The notes beneath the pieces were generated by a model. That model did not search any database. It was given only the letters and a program-made list of their open reading frames with translations, and had not been told where the DNA came from. A DNA stretch of 64,000 bases, taken from contig JAHJJD010000035.1 in assembly GCA_018822845.1 (NCBI GenBank), forward strand, positions 1 through 64,000, read 5' to 3'. Shown one piece after another: positions 6,501-10,786 of the stretch. A program made the translations under genes and the position numbers. The stretch is from Gammaproteobacteria bacterium (GTDB lineage Bacteria > Pseudomonadota > Gammaproteobacteria > Thiotrichales > Thiotrichaceae). Positions within the stretch are counted from its first letter, which is position 1. Every line of letters begins with the position of its first letter.

Positions 6501-7106
6501 ATGAGTGCTACCGAAGTCACGTTTGCCCAATACGATGCTTATGTGGAAGCGACAAAGGGTAAAGAAAAGCCGGATGACTCGGGCTGGGGACGTGATACCC
6601 GCCCGGTGATGCGCGTATCGTGGGACGATGCCCAAGGTTATGTGAAGTGGCTGACAGATTACAATGGGCAGGGCTTAAGCTGTCGTCTGCCGACGGAAGC
6701 GGAATGGGAATATGCCGCGCGGGCGGGTACGACAACAGAGTATTTTTGGGGCGACGACATCGGCAAGAACAATGCCAACTGTGATGGTTGTGGCAGTCAA
6801 TGGGATAACAAACAAACTGCGCCTGTGGGTAGTTTCAAGGCTAATGGTTGGGGTTTGCAGGATATGCACGGCAATGTTTGGGAATGGGTGCAGGACTGCT
6901 GGCATGATGATTATCAGGGTGCTCCTGCTGATGGCACGGCCTGGGAGTCTGGCGGCGACTGTGGTCGCCGTGTGTTGCGGGGCGGCTCGTGGCTCAGCGG
7001 TCCGGACCTCTTGCGTTCGTCCAGCCGTTACGGCTACGCGCCCGGCAACCGTGACGACGACCTCGGTTTTCGTGTTGTGTGCGTCCTCCCATTAACAGAG
7101 CGCTGA
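3525..7106 (+). CDS. Membrane FGE/C-type-lectin receptor, DGR target 1
   Basis: This 1193-residue protein has a helical N-terminal region (1-75), repeat-derived linkers, membrane segments at about 116-138, 196-219 and 708-732, and a C-terminal FGE-sulfatase domain (about 959-1190; IPRGSFKMGSE, CRLPTEAEWEYAARAG, DMHGNVWEWVQDCWH, RVLRGGSW, LGFRVVC). The FGE fold is a C-type-lectin fold and a common DGR target. Residues about 1157-1180 lie in VR1 and differ from the template only at adenine-derived positions. The paired catalytic cysteines of true FGE are absent from this loop, so a ligand-binding role is inferred. The gene starts 3 bp after the MoxR stop. In-frame repeats occur at codons near 80-103, 579-625, 659-667 and 797-806. 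It is read as the diversified sensor of the TIR/MoxR system. Confidence 0.85.
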   Translation: MQGKLSLDTLLDHIRLRGIPVGTAELQRLQAVFSRAPRLSRVEFLNLLQTVLAKDEGQRRSIERLFETLVPFEGEEMLGESPAWQAPTATSSPVGASPAGDSSAETPRKKPRKPLNVLAIGLSILAIIVLTLVGLAYEENEKNTELHSEIGPTTPPPPPEIPKEEKKPEHGLKLVDTIETWQPVIVRPETILVWERILPALAIFLGAGLGFVWLLHQAILRTRVRQPEPPRIRSKGKSFLPALQDLPDFHLLGSDARREMGWGISHYLSEQPLNQLDIPRSVEATARSGLPSIHFRTASREREVWLWQDQASNNPDLTRLAGEITATLMAVNIFVQPGYFHGLPSRVVSPQGEVLWSNRHEYPENQPLVVVLGDGDSLAQMEAAHSDEKHATFRQLGHWANVCMVDCSQPSGSLCQQLKPYPLECLLPQDVSGWLARQGGQRETASSVCPLDELHRWAIACALPERPLMEAEIRALHEALGLDCAWQYHNLKRYARESGMGFDFAGQRHALMQDFARLARAGNRDVQRAVTFWLQRYAEIDRELGERETERRPWQESKRQRLLEVDKALVGLWGCSALPPIPSPSPARGEGSKSPLTPLLQRGEQEAAHDPASPFEKGGLRGISSSAETLYDLHEHVDLRKEVERKLGQYACLDWPAAGESPAGQAPTGDGWIRLPYRWVELSAKTRKQLLAAGFGGKAENLKLGWDKTTGVLLGVLAGLALSGLVGSVYGLMPVPVQIKPLLNSADPAEQLPRPEDARQWFIGTAKAGALEPLETSEHNDQIVWVKWERKTRLAREIPPNPPFAKGGKEDRVELWFAGENGKPERPNVADWPVVSVAVIAASPDDPDAQRLAAKLLDNGTADQVLIGEKWRKHQADIMQQWQGLPGMQWVYVNAEPPPYAGHEHIAHFKLTPAELLAKLEKPGVHEADSLQTGAKVRGNPRLIGFAPDMEMLELPHDMKLLPIPRGSFKMGSETYDNEKPVHPVNINHDFWMSATEVTFAQYDAYVEATKGKEKPDDSGWGRDTRPVMRVSWDDAQGYVKWLTDYNGQGLSCRLPTEAEWEYAARAGTTTEYFWGDDIGKNNANCDGCGSQWDNKQTAPVGSFKANGWGLQDMHGNVWEWVQDCWHDDYQGAPADGTAWESGGDCGRRVLRGGSWLSGPDLLRSSSRYGYAPGNRDDDLGFRVVCVLPLTER
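3761..3832. repeat. Two REP-like units in receptor gene 1
   Basis: Inverted units at 3761-3789 (containing AATCGCCTGCATGGCAGG) and 3801-3832 (containing CTGTAGGAGCCAGCCCCGC) are translated as ESPAWQAPT and VGASPAGDSS. They form the linker before the first membrane segment. Confidence 0.85.
5261..5396. repeat. CCCCCTAACCCCCC-type repeats translated in receptor gene 1
   Basis: Three pyrimidine-rich palindromic pieces lie side by side (CCTTCCCCCGCAAGGGGGGA, CCCTTTTGCAAAGGGG, CCCCCTTTGAAAAAGGGGG). They are read in frame as a low-complexity linker containing SPARGEG, LTPLLQRGE and PFEKGGLRG. This resembles dispersed intergenic repeat DNA captured by the coding sequence. Confidence 0.75.
5501..5529. 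repeat. REP-like unit in receptor gene 1
   Basis: A single unit (GGAATCGCCTGCGGGGCAGG then CTCCTACAG) is translated as ESPAGQAPT. It belongs to the same family as the units at 671, 2927, 3761 and 10440. Confidence 0.85.
5912..5950. repeat. CCCTTTTGCAAAGGG repeat in receptor gene 1
   Basis: A second copy of the repeat type at 5261 (CCTTTTGCAAAGG core) is translated in frame as IPPNPPFAKGGK, shortly after the third membrane segment. Confidence 0.75.
6961..7093 (+). other. DGR variable repeat VR1
   Basis: This aligns without gaps to TR 7253-7385 at a constant offset of 292. The first 32 bases are identical and contain no A. The core differs at 17 positions, all adenine in TR (mostly A to G, some to T or C). 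The next 27 bases (CTCGGTTTTCGTGTTGTGTG...) are identical and resemble the invariant 3' initiation region of other DGRs. An 18th A difference is at 7089. It covers the C-terminal ligand-facing loop of receptor 1 up to its final codons. Confidence 0.95.
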
Positions 7107-7174
7107 AATACCGACCACTGGAACACTGTCCTTCCCTCTCCCCAGCAGGGGGAGAGGGCTAGGGTGAGGGGGTT

Positions 7175-7203
7175 CCGCCGCGCAGCGGCGGCGAAATTTT
7201 TTT
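7175..7203 (+). terminator. Rho-independent terminator of the receptor operon
   Basis: Hairpin CCGCCGC/GCGGCGG with a 3-base loop (7175-7191), followed by CGAAATTTTTTT. It lies 70 bp after the receptor stop codon. An inverted copy follows the second receptor gene at 9481-9503. Confidence 0.85.
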
Positions 7204-7252
7204 GCGCTATACTCAGATAGCGGGTGGCAACATCCGCCGGGTTTCCCGGTTC

Positions 7253-9480: not shown

Positions 9481-9503
9481 AAATCGCCGCCGCTACGCGG
9501 CGG
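9481..9503 (-). terminator. Terminator of receptor gene 2
   Basis: Read on the minus strand, CCGCCGC, loop GTA, GCGGCGG is followed by CGATTTTTAA. It is the inverted duplicate of the terminator at 7175-7203 and touches the stop codon of the Rpn gene. Confidence 0.75.
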
Positions 9504-9571
9504 AACCCCCTCACCCTAGCCCTCTCCCCCTGCTGGGGAGAGGGAAGGACAGTGTTCCAGTGGCCAGTATT

Positions 9572-10786
9572 TCAGCGACCTGTTAATGGGAGGACGCACA
9601 CAACACGAAAACCGAGGTTGTCGTCACGGTGGTCGGGCGCGAAGTAGAAACGGTTGGACGAACGCAAGTAGTACGGATCGAGGTTCCACGAGCCGCCCCG
9701 CAACACACGGCGACCACAGTCGCCGCCAGACTCCCAGGCCGTGCCATCAGCAGGAGCACCCTGATAATCTTCATGCCAACAGTCCTGCACCCATTCGTAA
9801 ACGTTGCCGCGCATGTCGTGCAAGCCAAACGGGTTGGAGGGAAAACTGCCGACAGGCGCAGTATTCACCCACTGATCCTTACCTTCCGCCAAACCATCAC
9901 AGCATTCATCCTTGCCATAGTTGGCGTAATCATGGCTGGCTTCGTCCCCCCAAGGGTAATCCGTTGTCGTTCCCGCCCGTGCGGCATACTCCCATTCCGC
10001 TTCCGTCGGCAAACGACAACTGGCCCCGGTTTCTTTTGATAACCAGTTCACATAGCCTTGCGCATCATCCCACGAGACATTGATCACCGGGCGGGTATCG
10101 CGCCCCCAACCTGCATCATCAGGGGCATCAAACTCAATAGCGTTTCGTGCCATCAACCAGCGATAGTAATCGTATTCGGCAAAGGTGATTTCGTATTTGC
10201 TAATGTAAAATGGCTGTTTGATCGTGACGGTGTGGACAGGTTGCGCCCATGCAGAATTTTCGCCCCCCATCTGAAACTCACCCGCCGGTATCCTGACCAT
10301 CTCAGGCAGTGGCACAAACCCTAACCGCCACAGCGGCTTGTCATCCTGTACCCACCACCAGCCGACCAAGCCGCCAAAGCCCAACACGGCTGTCGATAAA
10401 AACACCCCCACCCGCACCAGCCAATATTTCCACCCACACGTAGGAGCCTGCCATGCAGGCGATTCTTCTGATTCAGCCACCTTGGGGGAATCGCCTGCAT
10501 GGCAGGCTCCTACAGGGAGGTCGGCTTTGACGCAGCCGGTTTGCCACCACGCCACCAGTAACAGCAGCGCCGCCAGCGCAAAAAACACCCACGCCGGTAA
10601 CGGGCTTTCCACCAGCAAGCCAAAGCCACCAGCAACCCCTGCCAATAACCCCAACACCGGCAACAGCGTGCGGCTGCTCTTCCTCCTCCCCTGATAAGGG
10701 GAGGCCGGGAGGGGTTTCTTTCCAACGCCGAAAAGGTGTTTCTTCAAAGGTTTATTCGCCAAAACAACATTCCAGATGACAGACAC
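9572..10786 (-). CDS. Membrane FGE/C-type-lectin protein, DGR target 2
   Basis: A 404-residue protein. It has three hydrophobic segments (LLPVLGLLAGVAGGFGLL, AWVFFALAALLLLVAWW, VGVFLSTAVLGFGGLVGWWW), then an FGE-type domain from about residue 186 (MVRIPAGEFQMGGE, CRLPTEAEWEYAARAG, DMRGNVYEWVQDCWHEDY, RVLRGGSW, LGFRVVC). The VR2 segment encodes the loop between RGGSW and LGF. The last 75 or so residues are almost identical to receptor 1 outside the VR. It lacks the large N-terminal region of receptor 1. REP-like repeats encode VGACHAGDSP and ESPAWQAPT between membrane segments 2 and 3, and the N-terminal PYQGRR is also repeat-like. The start is uncertain; no strong ribosome site was seen. Confidence 0.85.
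   Translation of the reverse strand: MSVIWNVVLANKPLKKHLFGVGKKPLPASPYQGRRKSSRTLLPVLGLLAGVAGGFGLLVESPLPAWVFFALAALLLLVAWWQTGCVKADLPVGACHAGDSPKVAESEESPAWQAPTCGWKYWLVRVGVFLSTAVLGFGGLVGWWWVQDDKPLWRLGFVPLPEMVRIPAGEFQMGGENSAWAQPVHTVTIKQPFYISKYEITFAEYDYYRWLMARNAIEFDAPDDAGWGRDTRPVINVSWDDAQGYVNWLSKETGASCRLPTEAEWEYAARAGTTTDYPWGDEASHDYANYGKDECCDGLAEGKDQWVNTAPVGSFPSNPFGLHDMRGNVYEWVQDCWHEDYQGAPADGTAWESGGDCGRRVLRGGSWNLDPYYLRSSNRFYFAPDHRDDNLGFRVVCVLPLTGR
9585..9717 (-). other. DGR variable repeat VR2
   Basis: On the minus strand it aligns without gaps to TR 7253-7385, with 16 differences. Fifteen are at TR adenines (to T, G or C); one is T to A at the second base of the first variable codon. The 32-base A-free start and the 27-base invariant 3' segment are identical to TR. 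VR1 and VR2 also differ from each other at many of these positions, so the two were diversified independently. Confidence 0.95.
10440..10515. repeat. REP-like repeat pair in receptor gene 2
   Basis: Inverted units GTAGGAGCCTGCCATGCAGG (10440) and TCGCCTGCATGGCAGG leading to CTCCTACAG (10515). On the minus strand they encode VGACHAGDSP and ESPAWQAPT. Confidence 0.85.

Follow-up and report, generated by a model that had tools for sequence, protein, structure and literature searches.

How can a diversity-generating retroelement (DGR) carry an almost perfect record of adenine mutagenesis when the reverse transcriptase (RT) beside it is broken? The question is raised by the first 64,000 nucleotides of contig JAHJJD010000035.1 from a Gammaproteobacteria bacterium of the Thiotrichaceae, likely a Thiothrix (assembly GCA_018822845.1), a stretch that we call the window, in which a template repeat (TR) is flanked by two variable repeats (VR1 and VR2). 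The answer that we consider the most probable, with real room for doubt, is that the cassette's own RT wrote the repeats by mutagenic retrohoming and then broke recently, leaving a cassette that can no longer work alone.

A preliminary description of this DNA had aligned the TR without gaps with both VRs and had read the differences as the mark of a DGR. Realignment at the same coordinates (TR 7253-7385, 133 bases) bore out the gap-free alignment and returned the same counts. VR1 differs from the TR at 18/133 sites, every one an adenine in the TR (12 A>G, 3 A>C, 3 A>T), and VR2 differs at 16 sites, of which 15 are TR adenines and the remaining one is T>A at TR position 34. The recount of A versus non-A changes therefore leaves a single non-A difference in total and no large share at C, G or T. 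With 29/133 TR positions being adenines, the hypergeometric probability of such concentration is ~4e-15 for VR1 and ~5e-11 for VR2. Every change is at codon position 1 or 2 when read in the target frame, and none creates a stop. An A-free start of 32 bases and an A-free block of 27 bases (TR positions 102-128) are the same in TR, VR1 and VR2, as had been described. It is extremely improbable that ordinary divergence among copies of a C-terminal FGE-sulfatase domain, and not a DGR, produced the repeats: such domains are abundant (31 PF03781 matches in the genome), but the concentration at adenines and the lone non-A difference argue against ordinary copying, as do the non-coding, AAC-rich TR, the avd gene, the RT remnant, the structured RNA and the hairpins after the targets.

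Two of the differences probably have other origins. A129>C is common to VR1 and VR2, and by eye C stands where the relatives' own TR has A at position 129 in 11/11 of their VR ends (two each from the Leucothrix pacifica genome G032 and loci L124, L113, L109 and L130, and one from G004a). Because of this recurrence, A129>C is probably not mutagenesis but a fixed mark by which the 3′ end of a template, named IMH*, differs from that of a target, named IMH; with it left out, 17/17 differences in VR1 and 14/15 in VR2 are at TR adenines. At position 34 the window TR reads ATC, versus AAC in 16/16 other TRs extracted with a search pattern that permitted A or T there. The T34>A difference in VR2 is probably an A site whose copy in the window TR mutated; since the TR itself would have changed, it is no evidence against adenine specificity. 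The adenine-restricted differences show past mutagenic homing and not present activity, so that the earlier reading of the signature as mutagenic homing stands for the past and does not extend to the present.

The RT gene survives as two pieces in different frames (Table 1), for which the intact 355-amino-acid (aa) RT of Leucothrix pacifica served as reference. In the numbering of a second intact RT, the 334-aa metagenome protein P0241, residues 67-209 (143 residues) are missing from the window, and against these two independent RTs both the catalytic core and the reading frame are lost. The first catalytic aspartate stretch is gone and YVDD is retained. The (I/V/L)GxxxSQ motif, which together with YxDD marks a DGR RT and is present with it in the intact Leucothrix counterpart, is absent from all three plus-strand frames of the window RT. 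No working RT product would be expected from these frames. Other DGR features are present in the window: the TR/VR adenine pair, FGE targets, Avd, a structured RNA 3′ of the TR and stem-loops after the VRs. By descent and by signature the window thus holds a DGR cassette, though an incomplete one; its preliminary identification as a DGR is sound as to sequence signature, gene content and layout and has to be given up as to a working element, the local RT not being intact.

Table 1. Positions of the repeats, RT pieces, RNA features and genes of the cassette, numbered from the first letter of the window.
Feature	Position	Strand	Evidence or remark
TR (template repeat)	7253..7385	+	11 AAC codons in target frame
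VR1	6961..7093	+	18/18 differences at TR adenines
VR2	9585..9717	-	15/16 differences at TR adenines
RT remnant, N-terminal piece	7894..8133	+	residues 8-87 of G032 RT; 88% to P0241 over 66 aa
RT remnant, C-terminal piece with YVDD, other frame	8136..8507	+	residues 231-354 of G032 RT; 85% to P0241, 125 aa
Structured RNA domain, at and 3′ of TR end	7365..7532	+	models R2, R3; covariation on 19 sequences
VR1 3′ flank, recurs after VR2	7094..7201	+	94% to 9479-9584 minus; GC hairpin 7175-7191 before T run
VR2 3′ flank, copy of VR1 flank	9479..9584	-	GC hairpin 9487-9503
avd, 123 aa, intact, antisense to TR and RT	7515..7886	-	PF22296 bAvd E 9.4e-20 (longer ORF 7515-8015)
VR1 target, 1193 aa, C-terminal FGE-sulfatase (C-type-lectin-like) domain	3525..7106	+	PF03781 E 3.7e-60, residues 961-1185
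VR2 target, 404 aa, FGE-sulfatase domain	9572..10786	-	PF03781 E 2.2e-60
MoxR-like AAA ATPase (AAA_5), directly upstream of VR1 target	2523..3521	+	PF07728 E 1.9e-12
TIR-domain protein, 828 aa, first gene of VR1 operon	40..2526	+	PF13676 TIR_2, E 4.9e-10
DUF4351 gene, between RT remnant and VR2	8578..9480	+	PF14261 E 4.1e-10

Judged from these sequences, the RT loss is likely recent, because TR and VRs disagree at just one non-A site and because the metagenome relative P0241 keeps an intact RT that is 85-88% identical to both pieces. A deletion that is only an artefact of assembly or strain mixture, so that the cell or some of the population would have an intact cassette, is improbable. The assembly is in 130 contigs, three of which (C3, C76 and C20; C numbers without a prefix are contigs of the window's genome, G000, in which the window contig is C16) break at DGR repeats, and in Thiohalocapsa structural variants with and without intact RT coexist, according to the available text of PMC10907252. 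However, the contig with the deletion junction is 89,737 bases long and the junction is internal to it, and similar RT core losses occur in other genomes from separate assemblies, G004a, G002:C31 and L124 among them.

That the lost RT was the writer is supported by Leucothrix pacifica, where the same gene order and strands accompany an intact RT and both VRs have 0/70 non-A mismatches in the core. In the course of events that we favour, RT and Avd would have bound the TR transcript with its 3′ domain, copying would have introduced errors at adenines, and the cDNA would have replaced VR1 and VR2, altering binding residues of two putative sensors; the local RT would then have lost its catalytic core, recently. 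The cassette is now likely silent or dependent on an RT encoded elsewhere.

The RNA domain 3′ of the TR bears on which RT could serve this template. The sequence 3′ of the TR is conserved among the window, G004a and G032, and RNA model R2 was built from these three. At E<=1 (rough E-values) the model matches 46/80 RT-selected genome loci, the Leucothrix locus included, under titles of Leucothrix, Accumulibacter, Nitrosomonas, Anaerolineales and others, and 23/46 of the matches directly follow a TR that has a VR in the same locus in our own scan. For covariation, 17/46 matches (the 15 best with L179 and L120, seven between being skipped) were realigned with the window and G004a, giving 19 sequences. 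The consensus holds 30 pairs, 17 of them changed on both sides; 96.3% of cells pair, and pairing drops to 35-47% when the partners are slid. The covariation score was 0.451 versus 0.183 ± 0.013 in shuffles, with 0/500 shuffles reaching 0.451, in a test inclined towards structure in that a structure-carrying model picked the sequences and relatedness inflates the shuffle test. Folded alone, the window RNA gave no signal (z -0.76). Rfam showed no family for the RNA domain within 6900-9800, and its one sRNA match there was taken as chance (30 bits versus a gathering score of 55). The hairpin stretch of the window VR flanks recurs at 94% after both VRs of Leucothrix. Of 13 VR flanks scanned, 12 have a perfect hairpin, the two of the window among them, and by the same scan the 130 bases that follow the window TR have none.

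Among 63 Thiotrichaceae genomes, model R3 finds the RNA in three (the window's genome, G004 and G032), all three in the model, and model R1, made for the RNA of HRDC-class RTs, matches 12/63. Neither R1 nor the R2-class models find the other's RNA. A loop motif that seemed by eye to be common to the C121 RNA (described below) and HRDC-type RNAs was dropped, since R1 gave no match to C121 or to the window at E<=5.

These RNA classes matter for a second explanation, namely that the cassette is still active but non-autonomous, its TR-RNA and Avd using an intact RT at C3 or C39; we regard this as possible and markedly less probable. RVT_1 has three matches in the whole genome, those on C39 and C3 above the cut-off, with IGSLTSQ and YMDD both present, and that of the window remnant below it. 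When 24 FGE loci were scanned, nine VRs (window VR1 and VR2, C39, C76, C3, C9, C29:26149, C121:43570 and C22:6802) matched one of five TRs at <=1 non-A core mismatch. Homing at a distance is likely for the C76, C9 and C29:26149 VRs, to go by their sequences, because each of them has 0 non-A core mismatches to a TR on a contig other than its own. The window's own TR/VR agreement equals that of intact cassettes, and trans-diversified targets are described in the available text on Thiohalocapsa (PMC10907252). Against service in trans, the intact C3 and C39 RTs come with an HRDC accessory gene (PF00570) and so belong to a class other than the window's, and the two classes' RNA models do not cross-match; nor did any VR outside the window prove close to the window TR among the 24 loci. 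The lost local RT is favoured as the writer because the RNA model of the HRDC class does not match the window, and because the window's RNA class is confined, within the 63 genomes, to the three already in its model.

The five TRs are those of C16, C39, C20, C121 and C22. An intact RT adjoins the C39 TR, and three (window, C121 and C22) have no working RT alongside. C20 starts in the apparent end of an RT gene resembling the intact RT gene with which C3 ends, a join that is not certain because the end of C76 has sequence of this kind too. C22 has neither RT nor avd, both of which G004 and G007 keep by a related TR. Further RT remnants lie on C125 and C76. The latter (L190 8546-9049, G000:C76) is a deletion that fuses the HRDC accessory gene and the RT into one short frame, and the VR upstream of it has 0/72 non-A mismatches to the C39 TR. 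Tandem pairs of FGE domains were also seen in genes of about 1,300 aa (L039 5475-9416, G000:C70, and G000:C124:38016-39701); the ends of these genes are VR-like, with >=14 non-A mismatches to each of the five TRs.

Action in trans can also be argued for at C121. Its TR and 3′ RNA (L037 7030-7340 minus, G000:C121:43029-43339) have no RT nearby, and the same is true of the counterparts G002:C14 and G011:C19, G002 being a genome of the window's genus. Between G000 and G002, 95/100 bases of the TR core and 183/190 of the next bases are identical, versus 2080/2690 in the VR gene, 115/202 in the spacer and 173/333 in the 3′ flank; the TR-RNA is thus 96% conserved and the neighbouring gene 77%. At all five TR differences inside the repeat, each species' VR carries the letter of its own TR (5/5), four of the five sites lying within six columns, so that they are perhaps one event and the independent count may be two. 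If the ancestor was RT-less, this joint change of TR and VR is the pattern that would be expected from homing after the species split, and it argues for action in trans, as far as these alignments can indicate. Independent RT losses or interspecies transfer of the whole piece may also account for it. No intact DGR-type RT was found among the four RVT_1 matches in G002. Nor was one recognised in G011, two of whose three matches were inspected (all but C1:218452); the C121-type VR gene of G011 is truncated, with no VR found. Service in trans is better supported at C121 than at the window, where it is weaker because the class of both intact RTs has an RNA model that does not match the window RNA. 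It is weakened at C121 too, because the HRDC-class model also misses the C121 RNA.

An RT census kept 80 genome-contig loci of 268 found, 59 with intact RTs, 14 with partial ones and 7 at contig ends; the 14 are an upper bound, as L135, L144 and L185 may merely have a diverged start. With hand-compiled lists and the best VR per cassette, the best TR/VR pair had zero non-A mismatches in 20/29 cassettes with intact RTs and in 7/9 with broken or absent RTs (p = 0.49, or 0.60 when L135, a doubtful break counted as broken, is dropped). The comparison omits cassettes for which no VR was found (e.g. G013a, G011, G004h, L110 and L154), and second, worse-agreeing VRs (9/75 in G002:C31 and 7/73 in C59) lie outside it. 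Non-A mismatch was accordingly rejected as a clock of RT loss, intact and broken cassettes being alike, and the TR/VR signature cannot separate a living cassette from a dead or served one.

Individual broken loci take several forms. L124 4561-5300, from a Pseudomonadota metagenome-assembled genome, parallels the window in having kept TR, RNA and two VRs (0 and 1/54 non-A mismatches), and has lost the avd gene together with the initial two thirds of the RT. L206 6503-7291 minus (G002:C31) is a DGR RT with an in-frame core loss between two VR genes, which agree less well with the TR (2 and 9 of 75). At L232 6181-6789 minus (G004:C1) a deletion joins the RT gene into mid-TR, so that one frame runs from RT to TR. 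At L234 ~6034-6056 minus (G013:C4:1052926-1053055) an HRDC-class template RNA directly follows an FGE target, with no separate TR before it.

Several of these observations weigh against a lone local RT that broke recently. Broken cassettes are no worse in non-A mismatches, which fits trans service as well as recent loss. G004a and L110 have kept avd intact next to a broken RT, though L124 has lost avd. In the window's genome, C121 seems to be served although no RT adjoins it, and the recency of the window's loss rests on one relative known as protein only. A broader proposal, which we put forward tentatively and with low confidence, is a split hypermutation network in which few RTs serve several template RNAs, some of them (window, C121 and C22) selected as RT-less genes; the template RNA would then be the unit of the DGR, and loss of the RT core would be tolerated or favoured.

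Around the repeats, the genes run TIR, MoxR-like AAA ATPase, VR1 target, TR, avd (minus), RT remnants (plus), DUF4351 and VR2 target (minus). The FGE domain forms the C-terminus of both predicted targets, with the VRs at the gene 3′ ends, and Pfam found no vWA domain in the VR1 target. The ATPase also has a weak bpMoxR match (PF20030, E 0.0014, below cut-off). The closest protein found to the avd product is 95% identical, and the DUF4351 gene is probably a passenger. PADLOC gave weak TIR and AAA matches only. Among 120 proteins listed of 7984, no near-identical sister of the VR2 protein with another VR was found, the next nearest over most of the length being 57-66% identical, in a search whose 90% clusters may conceal sisters. 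Palindrome-like repeats lie in frame within three coding genes (670-741, 3759-3836 and 10439-10516) and encode SPAG/CHAGDS-type peptides, with similar copies elsewhere in the window.

As this locus demonstrates, TR and VRs may differ almost purely at adenines although the RT of their cassette is destroyed, so that such a signature alone is not proof of activity. The conserved RNA domain 3′ of the TR is a means of finding TRs without an adjoining RT, and C121 is a clear test case for trans-acting template RNAs, only two intact DGR RTs having been found in the genome. In the one literature library searched, no paper joining DGRs with Thiothrix was found, and the work combining DGRs with covariance models concerns other RTs, in so far as its available text goes.

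The kind of system is known, and the window adds to it a cassette with a core-deleted RT. VMAP-type MoxR-vWA ternary conflict systems combine a MoxR ATPase with vWA and VMAP in the available text of Kaur et al. (2020, PMC7159879); AAA_5 and TIR were found in the window, and neither vWA nor VMAP was by Pfam at E 0.01. The window resembles the vWA-less variant in the available text of Dore et al. (2024, PMC10907252). The DGRs with inactivated RTs of DiGReF share with the window a broken RT beside A-only TR/VR differences, and intact VR/TR, and the DiGReF authors infer very recent RT inactivation; the breaks given in the accessible parts of that paper (PMC3521204) are stops, frameshifts and insertions, whereas the window RT has lost 143 residues, and neither RT-less TRs nor conservation of the template RNA figure in those parts. 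Bordetella phage BPP-1, in the portion of PMC12875486 at hand, which also uses the names IMH* and IMH, has TR, RT, Avd and a stem-loop after the target repeat as the window does, and its structured spacer 3′ of the TR, the counterpart of the window's structured domain, recruits RT-Avd. BPP-1 is a phage system with avd upstream of the TR, whereas in the window avd lies antisense between TR and RT, with two convergent targets.

Similar in layout are the DGRs of Thiohalocapsa PB-PSB1, above all DGR 8 and clade 5A, which show, in the available text of PMC10907252, a MoxR-like ATPase directly upstream of a long vWA-less target, as in the window, and likewise a short CLec target, several DGR classes per genome, degenerate loci and trans-diversified targets; the window fits a clade 5A-type DGR by layout alone. 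The damage described there is by transposons and MITE-like arrays, as against an internal deletion of the RT core, and the RT and TR of a class stay together in one complete locus, as against the three TRs of the window's genome that lack a working RT. Leucothrix pacifica JCM 18388 (NZ_QGKM01000039.1; L072/L108) has the window's arrangement of VR(+), TR(+), avd(-), RT(+) and VR(-), the same RNA domain and the same hairpin stretch after the VRs. It differs in its intact RT, in an avd that is 64% identical and in its other neighbouring target genes.

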